A stretch of DNA of 44,071 nucleotides. Origin: Lachnospiraceae bacterium (GTDB lineage Bacteria > Bacillota > Clostridia > Lachnospirales > Lachnospiraceae). Made by a program: the position numbers and the translations under genes. The stretch is from NCBI GenBank assembly GCA_017443065.1, contig JAFSPF010000075.1, positions 1 to 44,071 on the forward strand. Reading direction: 5' to 3'. This document shows, in pieces, positions 1,152 through 27,272 of the stretch (its first letter is position 1; every line of letters starts with the position of its first letter). Below the pieces are notes generated by a model, which did not search any database, was not told the origin of the DNA, and saw nothing but the letters and a program-made list of their open reading frames with translations.

Positions 1152-3119
1152 TTACAATTCCTCCGCTTCTTCGATCAGCGTTTTTCCGCTGACATCGGAG
1201 GGCATGACGAATCCCGTACCGGCGGACAGAAACACGCTGCCGATGCGCGGACCCTCGGGCAACGCCGCGCGCTTGAACTGCTGGGAGAAGAATCTCCGGA
1301 AGAAGGTGCGCAGCGTTTTTTTGATCGTCTCCTCCGGATATCCCTCCGGACCCGCAAAGGCCCTTCTTGCAATCCGGTAGATCTTCCGCGGGGAAAAACC
1401 GCAGCGCAGGAAATAATACAGGAAGAAATCATGCAGCGCGTAGGGACCGAGGATGTCCTCTGTCTTCTGCGAAAGCTCCTTTCCCTCCGCCGTCGTCAGC
1501 TCCGGCGAAACCGGCGTGCCGATCACCGCTTCGATCACCTCCGTCAGCGCCGCATCGCCCGTGCGCGCCGCCTCCTGCCGCAGAAGATGCGGGATCAGCG
1601 TTTTCGGAACGCCCGCATTCAGCGCATACATGGACATCTGGTCACCGTTATAGGTGCACCAGCCGAGCGCGAGCTCGGAAAGATCCCCCGTCCCGATCAC
1701 GAGGCCATCGTGCAGGTTCGCCAGATCCATCAGCAGCTGCGTCCGCTCCCTGGCCTGCGCGTTTTCGAAGGTGACATCCTGCGTTTCGCCGTCATGACCG
1801 ATATCCTTCAGATGCATTCGCACCGCGTCGCTGATATCGATTTCCTTCAGCGGAACGCCCAGCGCTTCGCAGAGCTTTCGCGCATTCGCAAGCGTCTGCT
1901 GCCCCGTGCCTGGGCCGGGCATCGTCACGGCGCAGATGTCCTTCCGTTCCCTGCCGCATAAATCAAAGGTTTCGCAGACGGCCAGAAGCGCCAGCGTGGA
2001 ATCCAGTCCGCCCGAAATGCCGATCACCGCGGTCTTCGCGCCGGTGTGCTCCATGCGTTTTTTCAGCCCCAGCGCCATCATCCGCAGGGCCGTTTCGCAG
2101 GCTTCCTCCCGCGCCGCGGCATCCTCCGGCACAAACACATACGGTGCAAAGCGCCGCGTCAGCTTCGTTTCCTCCATGCGGAAGGAGATCACCTCGCGGT
2201 GATAGCTGTCATCCGCGGCGGAAAGCGCCTGAAAGGAGTTCATGCGTCTGCGGGCATTGCGCAAGCGCCCGATATCAATCTCCGAAACCGTGATGCCCTT
2301 TTCGAAGGGCTCTGATTCCGCAAGCATCGTGCCGTTTTCGCAGATCATGCGGTGGCCGGAAAAGACCTGCGCAGCCGTGGACTCCGACGGTCCCGCAGAG
2401 GCATACAGATAGGCGCAGATCATTTTGGCGGAGCCGTGACGGATGAGATCCTCCCGGAAGGCGCGTTTGCCGATCCCGCCGGGAGAGGCGGACAGATTCA
2501 CCAGCACCGTCGCGCCGACCCTTGTCAGGGCAATGTGCGGTGCGTCATAAACCCAGGCGTCCTCACAGATTTCACAGCCGATCACCAGTCCCTCCACGGA
2601 GGGAGAGGCATCGATCAGCGTATGCGTGCCAAAGGGCACGACGTCCCCCGCGATCTCCACCGGCACAGGAGAAGCGTTCCCCGCAGTGAAATATCTTGCT
2701 TCCCGGTGCTCCGCATAATCCGGGATGTTCTGCTTCGGAATCAGGGCCAGAAGCCTTCCGGACTGGATGGCCGCGGCCACGTTGTAAAGCTTGCCGTCCA
2801 GCTCCATCGGCAGTCCGACAAAGACGAGCGGATCCGCGGGGATCAGCTCCCCCTCTTTTTCCGGAGACTTGCGGATGAGCCCCGCCGTGAAGCGGATGAT
2901 CGCCACGAGCCCCTCCTCCGCCGCTTCGAGGAAGCGCTGCTGCAGAAACAGATCGCCGCAGGAATATCCGGTGATGCAAAGCTCCGGGAACACGATGATC
3001 TTCGCTCCCGCCTCGGAGGCTTCATCGATCCGCCTGCAGATCTGCTCCACGTTGTACGCGACGTCCCCCGCTCTGACCTCCGGTGTCGCTGCGGCAACTT
3101 TCACAAAACCGTCGTGCAT
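1152..3119 (-). CDS. nadE: Glutamine-hydrolysing NAD(+) synthase
   Basis: Makes NAD from deamido-NAD, ATP and glutamine, the last step of NAD synthesis. The 655-residue protein is the two-domain form. An N-terminal nitrilase-type glutaminase (about 1-290) has the Glu of FPELCITGY (Glu46), the Lys of LIPKQN and the Cys of GCEICEDAW. A C-terminal synthetase domain has the P-loop GISGGLDSTLALLA and GTGDLSELALGW. The internal glutaminase means no separate ammonia-producing partner is needed. It is the last gene of the ecfA1-ecfA2-ecfT-truA-nadE run, 14 bases after truA, with GGAGGG before the ATG. Confidence 0.95.
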   Translation of the reverse strand: MHDGFVKVAAATPEVRAGDVAYNVEQICRRIDEASEAGAKIIVFPELCITGYSCGDLFLQQRFLEAAEEGLVAIIRFTAGLIRKSPEKEGELIPADPLVFVGLPMELDGKLYNVAAAIQSGRLLALIPKQNIPDYAEHREARYFTAGNASPVPVEIAGDVVPFGTHTLIDASPSVEGLVIGCEICEDAWVYDAPHIALTRVGATVLVNLSASPGGIGKRAFREDLIRHGSAKMICAYLYASAGPSESTAAQVFSGHRMICENGTMLAESEPFEKGITVSEIDIGRLRNARRRMNSFQALSAADDSYHREVISFRMEETKLTRRFAPYVFVPEDAAAREEACETALRMMALGLKKRMEHTGAKTAVIGISGGLDSTLALLAVCETFDLCGRERKDICAVTMPGPGTGQQTLANARKLCEALGVPLKEIDISDAVRMHLKDIGHDGETQDVTFENAQARERTQLLMDLANLHDGLVIGTGDLSELALGWCTYNGDQMSMYALNAGVPKTLIPHLLRQEAARTGDAALTEVIEAVIGTPVSPELTTAEGKELSQKTEDILGPYALHDFFLYYFLRCGFSPRKIYRIARRAFAGPEGYPEETIKKTLRTFFRRFFSQQFKRAALPEGPRIGSVFLSAGTGFVMPSDVSGKTLIEEAEEL

Positions 3120-3133
3120 ATTTCGCTCCCTCC

Positions 3134-3871
3134 TTATGTCCTGTCATATCCCAGCAGGATCAGCCCCTGCGGCTCTGCGGTGCGGCCCGCGCGGGCGCGG
3201 TCGCGTGCTTCCAGTATCGCATACATGTCCGAAGGCTGCAACCTTCCCGTGCCGACATCGAGGAGCGTTCCCGCGATGATGCGGACCATGTGATAGAGGA
3301 AGCCGGAGCCGGTGACGCGGATGCGGATGAGCGGGCCGTCCCGCTCAACAGAGATCTCATGAATCGTGCGCTCGCGCGTCGGCGAGAGCGAATGCACGCT
3401 GCAGAACGAAGTGAAGTCATGCGTGCCGGTGAGCGCCTGTGCGGCCTCATGCATGGCCTTCACGTCCAGCGCGCCGCGATAGTGAAGGCTCGTGCGGCGC
3501 AGCAGCGGGTCCGGACGCTCCGTGTTTAAGATGCGGTATTCATAGGTCTTCGGCCAGCCGGTTTTGCGCGGATGAAACTCCATGGAAACCTCTTCGGAGG
3601 AAATGACGCGCAGATCCTCCGGCAGCAGCGGGTCCAGCGCAAGCGCGAAACGCTCCGGCGGAACGGTCGATGCGGTATCAAAGCTCGCAAGATTCCCGTA
3701 CGCATGCACGCCGGTGTCCGTGCGGGAGGCGCCGGTGAGTTCGATCTCCTCCCCGGTCAGCTCCTGCAGCGCGCGCGAAAGCTCCCCCTCCACGGTCCGC
3801 ACGCCTTCCTGAAGGGCAAAGCCGTGGAACTCCGTTCCGTCATATGCGACTGTCAGCAGGATCCGTTTCAT
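3134..3871 (-). CDS. truA: tRNA pseudouridine(38-40) synthase TruA
   Basis: Isomerises uridine 38-40 in the anticodon arm of many tRNAs. The 245-residue length is normal. The catalytic Asp lies in GASRTDTGVHA, about residues 48-58, and later motifs YEYRILN and GSGFLYHMVRIIAGTLL match the family. The start lies one base after the ecfT stop, so the two genes are almost certainly translationally coupled; ecfT-truA adjacency is common in Firmicutes. Confidence 0.95.
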   Translation of the reverse strand: MKRILLTVAYDGTEFHGFALQEGVRTVEGELSRALQELTGEEIELTGASRTDTGVHAYGNLASFDTASTVPPERFALALDPLLPEDLRVISSEEVSMEFHPRKTGWPKTYEYRILNTERPDPLLRRTSLHYRGALDVKAMHEAAQALTGTHDFTSFCSVHSLSPTRERTIHEISVERDGPLIRIRVTGSGFLYHMVRIIAGTLLDVGTGRLQPSDMYAILEARDRARAGRTAEPQGLILLGYDRT

Positions 3872-16398: not shown

Positions 16399-16614
16399 TT
16401 ACGCTCCCTGTGCCGCCTTCTCCTTGGCCGTGATCACTGTCTGTATCCGCGCGATGTTCCTGCGCACGTCACGGATCCTGGAGGTGTTGTCCAGCTGGTT
16501 CGTCGCGTGCTGGAAACGGAGGTTGAACAGTTCCTTTTTTGCGTTGATAAGTTCTTCGGTCAGCGCGTTATCATCCTTGGCATTCAGTTCTTTGATGTAA
16601 TCTCTCTTTTTCAT
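16399..16614 (-). CDS. rpmC: 50S ribosomal protein L29
   Basis: Sits at the tunnel exit and helps dock the signal recognition particle and trigger factor. 71 residues, [20 protein letters not shown] at the start and a helical hairpin following. The ATG at 16614 overlaps the rplP stop (ATGA). A longer in-frame extension to 16659 lies inside rplP and is rejected. Confidence 0.96.
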
Positions 16615-17042
16615 TTCTTTGCACCGCCTTCCAACTCTTCCCTGGAAACAATCTTGCATTTGCAGGGGAGCTTGTGTGTTGCGAGTCTTAAGGCTTCCCT
16701 GGCCTGCGCCTCGTCCACGCCGCCGATCTCAAACATGACGCGTCCGGGCCTGACCACCGCCACCCAGTACTCCACGGTGCCCTTGCCGCTGCCCATACGG
16801 GTTTCCGCGGGCTTTGTCGTAACGGGCTTGTCCGGGAAGATCTGGATCCATACCTGGCCGCCGCGCTTGATGAAACGGGTCATCGCGATACGGGCCGCCT
16901 CGATCTGGTTGGAGCGGATCCAGCAGGGCTCCGCCGCCACAATGCCGTAATCTCCGTGGGCGAGCGTTAAGCCCCTGCCCTCCTAATGCGCCATCGTGCC
17001 GCGGAACTGCTTACGGTGCTTTACTCTCTTCGGCATTAACAT
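16611..17042 (-). CDS. rplP: 50S ribosomal protein L16, interrupted by an in-frame TAG
   Basis: L16 lines the A-site side of the peptidyl transferase centre and is needed for normal large-subunit function. From the ATG at 17042 the frame reads [19 protein letters not shown], then TAG at 16983-16985 (codon 20), then [21 protein letters not shown] and an intact remainder to 16611. Ignoring the TAG the product is 143 residues, a normal L16 length, and residues on both sides match the family. Relatives have Lys at this position, so a single A-to-T change of AAG would explain it. Sequencing error, suppression or reinitiation are all possible; a GTG at 16940 is the best restart and would lose the basic N-terminus. 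Confidence 0.85.
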
Positions 17043-17730: not shown

Positions 17731-18120
17731 TTATTTCTTTTCGTCCAAAATCACTGTCAGGTGACTCATTCTCTTGTTGATGCGATACGCGCTGCCCCTC
17801 GCCCTCGGCTGGATGCGCTTCATGATCGGGCCGTTCGAGGCGAAGCACTCGGCAACATAAAGGTTGTCCTTGTTCATGCCCTGGAACTCCGCGTTGGCCG
17901 CCGCCGAAGCGAGCAGCTTGTGGATCACGGTTGCCGCGTACTTCGGGCTGTAATCCAGGATCGCGAGCGCCGTATTGACATCCCTGCCGCGGATCGCGTC
18001 CATGACGATGCAGGCCTTCTGCACGGGAATGCGCGCATAGGAAAGCTTTGCATGCGGACGTTTCTCTCTCTTCTCCGCGTTACGTTCGTGTTTAACCTGT
18101 GTTCTGTGCTGCGTAGCCAT
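17731..18120 (-). CDS. rplV: 50S ribosomal protein L22
   Basis: Its hairpin loop forms part of the exit-tunnel wall. 129 residues from the ATG at 18120, which has AGGAGGT upstream; a longer open frame to 18216 lacks family similarity. The C-terminal loop KRIQPRARGSAYRINKRMSH is typical. No deletion of the kind linked to macrolide resistance is evident by eye. Confidence 0.96.
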   Translation of the reverse strand: MATQHRTQVKHERNAEKREKRPHAKLSYARIPVQKACIVMDAIRGRDVNTALAILDYSPKYAATVIHKLLASAAANAEFQGMNKDNLYVAECFASNGPIMKRIQPRARGSAYRINKRMSHLTVILDEKK

Positions 18121-18148
18121 TTGAAAAACCTCCTGTACGGCGTCCGGG

Positions 18149-18430
18149 TTACTTGGAGCCGGATTTCTTTTCGCTTCCGGCGTGTCCCCGGAAGGTTCTT
18201 GTCGGAACGAACTCACCCAGCTTGTGACCGACCATATCCTCCGTCACGTACACCGGGATGTGCTTGCGCCCGTCGTGTACCGCGATCGTATGGCCGACAA
18301 ACGAAGGGAAAATCGTGGAACGGCGCGACCAGGTTTTGATGACCTGCTTCTGGTTCTGCTCGTTCATCGCGTCGATTTTTTTCAGTAAGCTCGCGTCCGC
18401 AAAGGGACCTTTCTTCAAAGAACGTGACAT
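18149..18430 (-). CDS. rpsS: 30S ribosomal protein S19
   Basis: Head protein that works with S13 in tRNA contacts. 93 residues, beginning [20 protein letters not shown] and containing [20 protein letters not shown]. Confidence 0.97.
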
Positions 18431-23044: not shown

Positions 23045-24076
23045 CTATTCTAATATCATCCAGAGAACGGGACGAACGCCCGCCGCGACGTCCCTCGCGT
23101 CCACGGTCTGGAACGCCCCCTCCGGAGAGACCATCACCGCGCCGGATTCGCTGCGGTTCGCGGATGTGCGCGTCCAGTAGGCGCCCGTCGAAACCCGGTC
23201 CGCTTCCGTGGGAAGATAGCGCTCCGTTTCCTGCATGGAGAAGATGTAAATGCGCTCCTCCGTGGACTTGCGCGTCACGGTCTGCGGATCCGAAGGATTC
23301 GCGGGGTTCTCCGCCATCACGGCCGCGATGCGGTTCTGCTCCGCGATGGAAAACGCGTTTGAGAAAAACTCCGTTGAAAGCCATTTGCGAAGCGTGCAGT
23401 ATTCCCAGGCCACGCCGATATGGGTCTCCGTGAACGGTCTTGTGTCCACAAGCTGCTCACAGAGCAGGAGGATCTGTCCGCCGTCACGGTTCAGCACACG
23501 CCAGCTCAGGGGCGCGCCCATCCACGTGCCGAAATTGACCGTGGAGCCGATCGCCGGTGCCGTCGCCTCTATCACGCGGTCCGTAATGCGGTATGCGGCA
23601 TCCGCGTCCACCGCACTCAGTCCCGCCGCGATCTCCCGCACACGGTCGTAATCCCCGGCGGCAAAAAGCTGCTCCGCAATACCGGAAAGCTCCGTGGCCG
23701 TTTCCGACTGCAGCGTTTGAAGCTCCGCCGGTGACAAATGCGCCGAAGCCCTGGAAAAGGCATCGGACACGCCCTGGGCGTTGGCCTCCGCACCGTAGGC
23801 CTTGACCAGGCCGCTGTAGGCCGCCGCGCCCTGCGCGTCAATCTCAAGCGCCGCCTCATAGGCCGTCGCCGCCTGGGAATACGCGCCCTCCGCATACTGT
23901 GCATCGCCCGAGGCGACCTGCCGTTCATATCGCCGCTCCGGTGTATTGCGTAAAAGAATAAACAGAACCGTGCCCAGAATCAGGACAAACGCGACCACGA
24001 TCAGAATCGCGATCAGTCTCCCCCGTCCGTGCGCCCCACGTTTTTTTCTTTTTTTTCTCCGTTTTCTGTTGTCCAT
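23045..24076 (-). CDS. Membrane-anchored TPR-like protein with DUF6273-like domain
   Basis: Function unknown. The 343 residues start with a very basic stretch (RKRRKKRKKRGAHGRGR), then one membrane segment (LIAILIVVAFVLILGTVLFI). An alanine-rich helical region of about 60-180 resembles TPR repeats (GDAQYAEGAYSQAATAYEAA), and a C-terminal domain has WRVLNRDGGQILLLCE, WEYCTLRKWLSTEFF and YWTRTSANRS. Those motifs recall DUF6273 of clostridial surface proteins. Topology would put the TPR and C-terminal parts outside. I start it at 24076; a frame to 24112 would include the promoter. It precedes the alarmone synthetase in one operon and ends in TAG. Confidence 0.75.
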   Translation of the reverse strand: MDNRKRRKKRKKRGAHGRGRLIAILIVVAFVLILGTVLFILLRNTPERRYERQVASGDAQYAEGAYSQAATAYEAALEIDAQGAAAYSGLVKAYGAEANAQGVSDAFSRASAHLSPAELQTLQSETATELSGIAEQLFAAGDYDRVREIAAGLSAVDADAAYRITDRVIEATAPAIGSTVNFGTWMGAPLSWRVLNRDGGQILLLCEQLVDTRPFTETHIGVAWEYCTLRKWLSTEFFSNAFSIAEQNRIAAVMAENPANPSDPQTVTRKSTEERIYIFSMQETERYLPTEADRVSTGAYWTRTSANRSESGAVMVSPEGAFQTVDARDVAAGVRPVLWMILE

Positions 24077-24083
24077 CGGATAC

Positions 24084-24112
24084 AGTATAGCCCATTCGCA
24101 AAAAATGAACAA
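24084..24112 (-). promoter_or_regulatory. Promoter of the DUF6273-like gene, leaderless type
   Basis: TTGTTC (24107-24112) and TATACT (24084-24089) with an exact 17-base spacer on the minus strand. The ATG at 24076 is only 7 bases past the -10 box and no ribosome binding site is visible. It is back to back with the dgc promoter. Confidence 0.65.
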
Positions 24113-24127
24113 CTCCTTCTTTACATA

Positions 24128-24136
24128 TGATATAAT
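24128..24136 (+). promoter_or_regulatory. Extended -10 promoter of the first GGDEF gene, leaderless type
   Basis: TG, one base, TATAAT (24131-24136), then the ATG at 24143 after six bases. No Shine-Dalgarno sequence and no clear -35. Confidence 0.6.
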
Positions 24137-24142
24137 AATGAA

Positions 24143-25858
24143 ATGAAACTACGCCCGCGCAGGAAAAACATCATCCTCCTGTGTTTTATGGCGCTATTTG
24201 TCGCGCTTAGTTTTTTTGCGCTTGTCATTCTTGTCCCCGAACCGGATTATCCCATCTACCAATTAAGCGATCACTGGAACGCGGTGCTGGCCGACGGAAG
24301 CACACAGACGGATGTCCGTCTCACCGATATCAATTTAGGCCCCGTCAAAACCGGTGAGGTTTACGAGCTGAGTCACATGCTGCCTCCGGAGGAGGTGATG
24401 GCCGGCACGCTTCAGATCAAAACCCGCCACGCTTCGCTGGAGGTCTATGTCGATGACATCCTGGTCTATACCGACGGCATGCAATACTTCGAACGGAATG
24501 AAATGACGCCGGCCTCCTTCCATTTCATCCCCTTGCCGGACGGCTACGCCTCCCGCGTCCTGAAGCTGCGGATCTGGGCCAATGAGGACGGCGCCTTCTC
24601 CGGTCTGGAGCCGGTTATGGTCGGCAACACCGGAGACCTGCAGGCGGAATACCTGCGCTCGGGCCGGCTGACGCTCTTCGCGGGGCTTTTCCTCGCGGTG
24701 ATGGGCATCATTCTTTTCTTCATTTTTCTCTACCTTTCGGTCAACTATCGTACGGAGATGCGAATTCTCTTCAGCGGTATACTCTCCTTTCTGATCGGCG
24801 TCTATATGCTGTGCTACTACAGCCTCGCGGATCTCTTAAGTCCGGGGCAGGTACGCAACAACATGATCGAATACATCGCCCTCTTTCTGATCCCCCCCGC
24901 GTTTATGGCGCTCTTAAGCGCCTCCACGGAATCAAAAGCCAGACGGGCTTATGCCGTTATTGCCGTTTTGGATTTTCTGGTTGCACTGGTCCTTATCACC
25001 CTGCATTTCAGGAATGTGATTTTCATCGACCAGTATGTCCCCGTGGTCCACATCATGATCATCACAGAGGGCCTCGGCATCGTTGTCTTTACCGTCATCA
25101 GTGCCATCCTCCGGAGGCGTCGCGCCATGATCCGCGAAGACTGGCGTGTGTCCCGGGTCATCTGGGCCGCAGGCTTCTTTGCCCTGCTGTTCTCCGCGAT
25201 CATTGATATTGTCCGTTTCAATGTTTCACTCTACATGGGAAATGGGGATGATTCCTACTCCAACCTGAACAGCCTGACGATCGGCGCGCTCCTTTTCGTC
25301 TCCGCGTTGATCGTCAATTTCTTCTATTATCATATCGAGCAGTTGTATGAGGAAGCAACGATCCGCCGCCTGTCCGGTCTGGCCTATACGGACCCGCTGA
25401 CGGACATGTCCAACCGCTCCCGCTGTGAGCAGCTGATGCGCCGGATTGATGAGGACGGCACGCCCTTCGTGGTCATCAGCATGGACCTGGATCACCTGAA
25501 GGAGATCAATGACAAATTCGGACACAGTGCGGGTGACCGCTATCTGTCCGATATGGCAAAGCTGCTGCGGGAGAGTTTCCTGGATACCACGCTGCTCGGG
25601 CGCATGGGCGGTGACGAATTCGTCGCGATCTGGGGCGGCACGGACACGCTTCCCTGCCGCCGCTCCGTCGCGCGGATGGAGACGGCGCTCATCAACCGGC
25701 ATTACACGCATCCGCCGGTCCGCGGTGACATTTCCTACGGCTATGCCGTCAGCACGGAAACCTATTCCGGCACCGTGAAGGACACCTATCATCTGGCGGA
25801 CCAGAGGATGTACGAAATGAAACGAATCAGACATCAGGAGGCGGCTGCCCATGCGTAA
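24143..25858 (+). CDS. Membrane diguanylate cyclase with 7TM sensor
   Basis: Predicted to make c-di-GMP from GTP in response to an external signal. The 571 residues comprise a first membrane segment (about 8-30), an extracytoplasmic beta-rich domain (about 35-165), seven closely spaced membrane helices (about 170-400, a 7TMR-DISM-like arrangement), and a C-terminal GGDEF domain. The active-site motif GGDEF is intact at residues 489-493, after YTDPLTDMSNRSR and DLDHLKEINDKFGHSAGD. The RxxD inhibitory site is absent (LDTT at that place), so product feedback through it is not expected. The start lies directly behind an extended -10 box. The stop overlaps the next GGDEF gene by 8 bases. Confidence 0.9.
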   Translation: MKLRPRRKNIILLCFMALFVALSFFALVILVPEPDYPIYQLSDHWNAVLADGSTQTDVRLTDINLGPVKTGEVYELSHMLPPEEVMAGTLQIKTRHASLEVYVDDILVYTDGMQYFERNEMTPASFHFIPLPDGYASRVLKLRIWANEDGAFSGLEPVMVGNTGDLQAEYLRSGRLTLFAGLFLAVMGIILFFIFLYLSVNYRTEMRILFSGILSFLIGVYMLCYYSLADLLSPGQVRNNMIEYIALFLIPPAFMALLSASTESKARRAYAVIAVLDFLVALVLITLHFRNVIFIDQYVPVVHIMIITEGLGIVVFTVISAILRRRRAMIREDWRVSRVIWAAGFFALLFSAIIDIVRFNVSLYMGNGDDSYSNLNSLTIGALLFVSALIVNFFYYHIEQLYEEATIRRLSGLAYTDPLTDMSNRSRCEQLMRRIDEDGTPFVVISMDLDHLKEINDKFGHSAGDRYLSDMAKLLRESFLDTTLLGRMGGDEFVAIWGGTDTLPCRRSVARMETALINRHYTHPPVRGDISYGYAVSTETYSGTVKDTYHLADQRMYEMKRIRHQEAAAHA

Positions 25859-27272
25859 ACAAAAAGCCCTTCTGACCGTCATCAGTGCCCTCCCCCTGCT
25901 CATCGCCCTGCTGATGCTGATCGCGCTGTGGGCCGGGACGCTGGGCGAATACCGTTCCCAGTGTTACCTCGTCAGCGGGGACAGCTGGGTCGTGCCTGAG
26001 GTCAATACGGTGCAGCCCTCGCTCTTTTTGCGCTACACCGGCGGTGATCTGAAGGTGCTTGCCGACGGCAAAACGGTTTATGAAAAGCAAACCGTCTCCC
26101 GGCTTGCGGAGCGTTTCTCCGGTTCCAGATCCCTGATTGTGGAGCTGCCGGAGGATGTCGCCGGAAAGAAGCTGGAGATCAAAATCAGCATCGAGGGAAC
26201 GGAGGTCAACACCCTCGTGGAGGCGCCTCTGTACGGCTCACATAATGCCGTCTTCCACCTGTTTTTGTACCAGGCGCTGCCGGCGCTGGTGATCGGCTCC
26301 TTCCAGCTGATTTTCGGCATCATCTTCCTCTTCCTGACGGTCGGCTTTTCCGTCACCGTCAGCGGTGTCGCGGACCACATCCTCGGTGCCGCCATCTGTA
26401 TCAATTTCGGCATGTGGCTGTTCAGCTCCGGCGGCATCCTGCCGCTCTTCATGCGCACACCCTATGACACCATCGTGGAGATCGGCACCTCGCTCCTGAT
26501 TCTTCCGCTTTTGCTGTTCATGCTCTATACCCTGAACAACCGCCGCAGCTACCTGGAGGTCGGCATCTGGATCTTCGCTGCCTGCATGGTCTTCTATCTG
26601 ATCTTCGCGGCCTCGGAAAGCATGAACAACGTGCGCATGCATGACCTTGCGACGCTCCTCCCGAACATCGGCTGCATCAGCTTTTCCGTCACGCAGATCC
26701 TGAACTACTACCTGAACATCACGGCCTCCTACGCGCGTCAGGAGGAATACATGTCGCTCACGGAAAAGGCTTATATCGACGCCCTCACGGGGCTGCCGAA
26801 CCGCAAGAGTGCGGACAACGTCTTCCGCTCCCTCAACAGCACGGCGGGCAGCTACTGCATTGTCAGTATGGACCTGGATAACTTAAAGATCATCAACGAC
26901 ACCTACGGGCATGAGGCCGGCGACAGCATGCTGAAGGCCGCCTCGGATACCCTGATCGAATGCGTCGGGGAGCTGGGCTTCCGTGCGCGCATGGGCGGTG
27001 ACGAATTCGTCCTCGTCTTAAAGCGCGTTCCGGAAAACGCCGTGCAGTCGCTGCTTGAGGAAATCGAAGAAAAACTGAACGGTGCGGGCATCGTCCGTCA
27101 CCGCATCCCCTACAGCATTTCCTACGGCTATGCCTTCCGCGAGGAGCGCAGGAAGGGCACCGCACTGGACATCTACAATCTGGCGGACGAGCGGATGTAC
27201 GAACAAAAATCTGAGAAGAAACGCCAGCGCATCTTGGAGGCGACGCTCGCGCAAGAAGGCCGCTCCCATTGA
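25851..27272 (+). CDS. Second membrane diguanylate cyclase
   Basis: Paralogue of the preceding gene with the same plan in 473 residues: one membrane segment near the N-terminus, a short extracytoplasmic domain (about 35-130), a multi-helix membrane region (about 140-300) and a GGDEF domain. GGDEF is at residues 382-386, preceded by YIDALTGLPNRKSADN and DLDNLKIINDTYGHEAGD. The inhibitory RxxD is again missing. The ATG lies inside the end of the first gene with GGAGG 10 bases upstream, so translation is coupled. Sequence between the two differs greatly outside the GGDEF part, suggesting different signals. The stop lies within the terminator hairpin. Confidence 0.9.
   Translation: MRKQKALLTVISALPLLIALLMLIALWAGTLGEYRSQCYLVSGDSWVVPEVNTVQPSLFLRYTGGDLKVLADGKTVYEKQTVSRLAERFSGSRSLIVELPEDVAGKKLEIKISIEGTEVNTLVEAPLYGSHNAVFHLFLYQALPALVIGSFQLIFGIIFLFLTVGFSVTVSGVADHILGAAICINFGMWLFSSGGILPLFMRTPYDTIVEIGTSLLILPLLLFMLYTLNNRRSYLEVGIWIFAACMVFYLIFAASESMNNVRMHDLATLLPNIGCISFSVTQILNYYLNITASYARQEEYMSLTEKAYIDALTGLPNRKSADNVFRSLNSTAGSYCIVSMDLDNLKIINDTYGHEAGDSMLKAASDTLIECVGELGFRARMGGDEFVLVLKRVPENAVQSLLEEIEEKLNGAGIVRHRIPYSISYGYAFREERRKGTALDIYNLADERMYEQKSEKKRQRILEATLAQEGRSH

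Follow-up and report, generated by a model that had tools for sequence, protein, structure and literature searches.

The window analysed here, 44,071 nucleotides long, is an entire contig (JAFSPF010000075.1; C55) of a draft genome from a Lachnospiraceae bacterium (144 contigs totalling 2.83 Mb, with completeness of 94.3% and contamination of 2.4%), which appears to be metagenome-assembled, judging from its fragmentation and its relatives. Its minus strand carries rplP, the gene for the 50S ribosomal protein L16, in the usual gene order with rpsC upstream and rpmC downstream (Table 1). Translation from 17042 to 16611 yields L16 with a sole internal stop, a TAG at codon 20 (16985–16983); codons 1–19 and 21–143 encode a normal L16, and the frame is thus interrupted at this one position. 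The part after the stop (16982–16614) matches the TIGR01164 (rplP_bact) profile from profile position 22 with 161.5 bits (cut-off 76.85). A first-pass annotation of the window, made from the sequence alone, had reported a TAG at codon 20 in a frame that is otherwise L16, and both translation and profile match bear this out. The apparent ATGA overlap between rplP and rpmC suggests that the two genes are translationally coupled.

Table 1. Features at the rplP locus (positions in the window)
Feature	Position	Strand	Remarks
rplP (50S ribosomal protein L16)	16611..17042	minus	143 codons plus TGA stop, with a single in-frame TAG inside
In-frame TAG, codon 20 of rplP	16983..16985	minus	Lys in the relatives examined
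AGGAGGG, Shine-Dalgarno-like	16978..16984	minus	Within rplP codons 20–22; no suitably spaced start codon
GTG, codon 35 of rplP	16938..16940	minus	First in-frame ATG, GTG or TTG past the TAG; restart there would lose 34 residues
Probable ATG of rpmC (L29)	16612..16614	minus	Overlaps the rplP TGA (ATGA)

Codon 20 in Relatives and Constraint on rplP

In what follows, G-numbers denote comparison genomes (G000 being the window's own), L-numbers loci and C-numbers contigs. The nearest relative, G470, shares 93.5% identity over rplP. The closest named public record for this gene is L086 (95% over residues 21–143), from the Lachnospiraceae metagenome-assembled genome RGIG3260 of goat reticulum, the rplP of which is identical to that of G054; Butyrivibrio strains are among the next-closest named relatives.

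An rplP match was obtained in 54 of 79 genomes of the genus, and the stop is present solely in the window's own (0 of the 53 others, two of which are partial: G051, at a contig end, and G471, residues 1–31 only). The G051 match, which begins at residue 36, was considered as a second broken rplP and ruled out, the locus being truncated by the contig end. In a sample of the family, 351 of 397 genomes gave an rplP match, with no other stop among the matches listed. Codon 20 encodes lysine in 29/29 other genus loci and in 80/80 named loci (a simpler codon pattern scored 79 of these), as had been proposed for relatives in general; the two sets of loci overlap, and the named loci L107 and L108 belong to the same genome. 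Both of the nearest relatives, G054 and G470, use AAA.

Codons 21–143 are under clear constraint, with Ka 0.018 and Ks 0.238 against G470, a dN/dS well below 1, and Ka 0.037 and Ks 0.842 against G054. This argues against an old pseudogene, which would have drifted, and a gene without signs of decay implies that the stop is very recent, is read through, or is not real. L16 is reported as a protein that could not be deleted in Bacillus subtilis (PMC4199504), making it unlikely that a true rplP null would be viable. A second intact copy, which the first-pass annotation had named as a possible refutation, was not found in the assembly (one match only, in a 144-contig draft that is 94.3% complete).

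Isolated Stops in Other Genomes and Quality of the Contig

Three further genes were used as controls in the 79 genus genomes. For rpoB, 59 genomes were matched and an internal TAG was present in at least one (G468) among the matches listed; it lies at base 2268 of its locus (L183, G468:C232), with the frame open on either side, in a draft that is 70% complete. For rpoC, 58 genomes were matched, with 0 stops. For prfA, all 79 were matched and at least three (G466, G059 and G464; L208, L209 and L210) were flagged with a TAG; these were rejected as internal stops, since the TAG stands in frame immediately ahead of the first ATG and probably reflects alignment overhang.

Among the ribosomal proteins of relatives, nine stops were recorded, two of them in L108 and seven close to protein ends (six in L29, one in L24). 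These seven are probably real ends. L108 is a locus on a short contig of Suipraeoptans intestinalis 68-1-5, in which two contigs of one assembly carry the ribosomal operon (loci L107 and L108); the stops fall at S3 codon 60 and L14 codon 52 of L108, and L107 is listed with none. The G468 rpoB and L108 cases indicate that lone, one-genome stops turn up infrequently, in the genomes and loci surveyed, in genes that ought to be retained; these stops are presumably errors.

Apart from rplP, no nonsense or frameshift change attributable to the window was found in 34 genes compared with G054 or in 31 compared with G470 (genes at 1152–23034, some partly covered; 6,661 and 5,967 aligned positions, respectively, including rplP). 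Four rows of this comparison were flagged, and none is interpreted as interrupting a gene of the window: 3134–3871 is longer in G470 and equal in G054, 1152–3119 has 655 residues against 647 in G054, and the listed starts of the open reading frames (ORFs) 16399–16659 and 17731–18216 are probably too early, the start at 16659 lying upstream of the probable rpmC ATG in a frame that a stop closes in G470. Many further sister ORFs were also flagged with stops; judged antisense or spurious from their overlap with known genes, these were likewise set aside.

Origin of the TAG

A miscalled consensus base in the draft assembly is the most likely source of the TAG. This reading is favoured because the stop is absent from every other genome examined, because the gene is constrained, because the other window genes compared show no such damage, and because neither a second copy nor a tRNA with anticodon CTA was found in the assembly; moreover, loss of L16 should be inviable, and isolated stops of this type are met in other drafts, as in the rpoB of G468. 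The organism itself would then have a lysine codon at position 20 of rplP and make an ordinary full-length L16, and the source reads would be expected to show a sense codon there. A survey of in-frame stops in bacteria considered, by its own account, only those common to at least two genomes, lowering the chance of sequencing error (PMC7918605); the rplP TAG, shared with none of the 53 other matched genus genomes, falls outside such a set. The explanations listed in the first-pass annotation (a base error, a suppressor tRNA and a restart) were soundly chosen, and the tests point to the first of them.

The specific route proposed there, a single-base change of AAG to TAG, has to be qualified. 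In the window's ribosomal region AAG outnumbers AAA among lysine codons (279 vs 97), random single-base changes that create a stop give TAG in 56% of cases, and the commonest single route is AAG to TAG. The nearest relatives, however, carry AAA, so that a one-base AAG-to-TAG route presupposes AAG in the window's own lineage.

Several observations weigh against a consensus error. Codon 20 differs at two bases from the AAA of the nearest relatives, and only 3.5% of random substitutions in the ribosomal region of the window create a stop. Nor is the contig visibly error-rich, as there is no clear excess of odd residues in conserved neighbours: over 10 ribosomal proteins, 5 otherwise invariant positions deviate uniquely in the window (the stop among them), vs 3 in its sister L086 and up to 25 in other genomes.

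Alternatively, the TAG might be a genuine nonsense allele that the assembler took up from some members of a strain mixture, or from dying cells, while the main population has an intact rplP. A minor variant can set the consensus of a draft assembly, and rplP is otherwise intact. Nevertheless, given that L16 is described as essential in B. subtilis (PMC4199504), carriers should not reach the level needed to set the consensus, and we consider a minor allele unlikely.

Possible UAG Readthrough

Under amber suppression, a UAG-reading tRNA would insert a residue at codon 20 and full-length L16 would be made. The intact and strongly constrained frame past the stop is consistent with suppression, and both internal stops met among the scanned core genes of the genus (rplP and rpoB) are TAG; the latter coincidence is unremarkable, because TAG makes up more than half of random single-base stops in this region, as noted above. 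Infernal gave 59 tRNA matches in the window's genome, and ARAGORN, run on the tRNA loci, resolved 29 distinct host tRNAs plus an array of 32 on contig C125. The search of the genome for a tRNA with anticodon CTA, which had been suggested as a check, found none in either group, but the set is incomplete: a Tyr (GTA) tRNA is likewise missing from both, so that the lack of a CTA tRNA is no proof and an unassembled one is possible. TAG as an anticodon is present only in a Leu tRNA, whose codon is CUA. A CTA-loop pattern searched in four genomes (G000, G468, G470 and G054) gave 17 matches, fewer than in the reversed control, and ARAGORN identified no CTA tRNA at these 17 loci.

The termination machinery also argues against suppression. 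Release factor 1 (RF1) is intact in the window's genome (515.7 bits, cut-off 423.25), and of the terminators of 35 minus-strand window genes examined, 23 are TAA, 10 TGA and 2 TAG. Thus neither the loss of RF1 nor the disuse of TAG that would mark UAG recoding is observed, in keeping with the original view that TAG is a true stop elsewhere in the window and with the doubt expressed there about a wholesale code change. Two specialised systems were looked for and rejected: no PylS exceeded the cut-off of 178.15 bits for a pyrrolysine system (both hits were weak, at 23 and 19 bits), and the tRNA-Sec model gave 9 matches, 0 of them over the cut-off. Taken together, these results make amber suppression improbable, somewhat more so than a minor allele. 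In its stronger form, the TAG would be genuine and fixed, and all L16 would depend on a UAG-suppressor tRNA encoded in sequence that the assembly lacks, tying ribosome supply to RF1 activity; we regard this as very improbable.

Two observations were made in passing. MFDKLE, with which prfA products usually start, is missing from the prfA of the window's genome (L211, G000:C78), where a GTG a few codons further upstream may be the start. The C125 array (L061, L175/L176) occupies about 3.8 kb at about 23296–27120, with 32 tRNA genes by ARAGORN and 30 by Infernal, and amounts nearly to a second tRNA set, lacking Tyr and CTA tRNAs; 8 of 9 proteins elsewhere on C125 match chromosomal-looking Pfam families (ROK, DUF1846, S41 peptidase, CvfB-like and others), and of 9 proteins scanned against PHROGs, 5 have matches.

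Possible Translational Restart or Hidden Copy

If the stop were real, L16 might arise by restart, either at the GTG of codon 35 or at some other site, and the short peptide encoded upstream might have a regulatory role. The GTG predicted at 16940 is indeed present in frame, and the AGGAGGG overlaps the TAG, an arrangement that might suggest reinitiation. However, the GTG starts 37 bases beyond the AGGAGGG, the product would be short of 34 residues, and at a useful spacing ATG, GTG and TTG are all lacking, as the first-pass annotation had stated. The AGGAGGG itself is explained by the coding sequence, since the codons there spell it, no unusual or recoding RNA fold was found around the TAG (z-score 0.16), and the TAG occurs in no relative examined. 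The proposed restart at this GTG therefore finds no support, and we rate this explanation as highly improbable, less likely than amber suppression.

Least probable of all is an intact rplP in the unassembled part of the genome, with the present copy a recent pseudogene: the assembly, 94% complete in 144 contigs, leaves room for one, but the present copy is constrained and sits in the operon between rpsC and rpmC, and 0 of the 53 other matched genus genomes have more than one rplP.

Comparison with Known Systems

Were the TAG real, production of full-length L16 from a needed ribosomal gene would hinge on UAG readthrough. If it is an error, as we favour, the case calls for caution: a lone stop in a needed gene of a draft genome, absent in relatives, warrants a check of the reads before a biological explanation is sought. 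The locus resembles amber suppression and UAG recoding with a CTA tRNA in having a UAG within a coding frame, but differs from them in that no CTA tRNA was found among the tRNAs identified, RF1 is intact and TAG still serves as a terminator. With the conserved in-frame stops for which Belinky et al. (2021; PMC7918605) describe readthrough in bacteria it shares purifying selection past the stop; unlike those, the rplP TAG is known from a single genome. Isolated error stops in drafts offer a further parallel, exemplified by the rpoB of G468. There, as in rplP, the stop is probably an error, and the two cases are alike in presenting a one-genome stop in an otherwise intact, needed gene.
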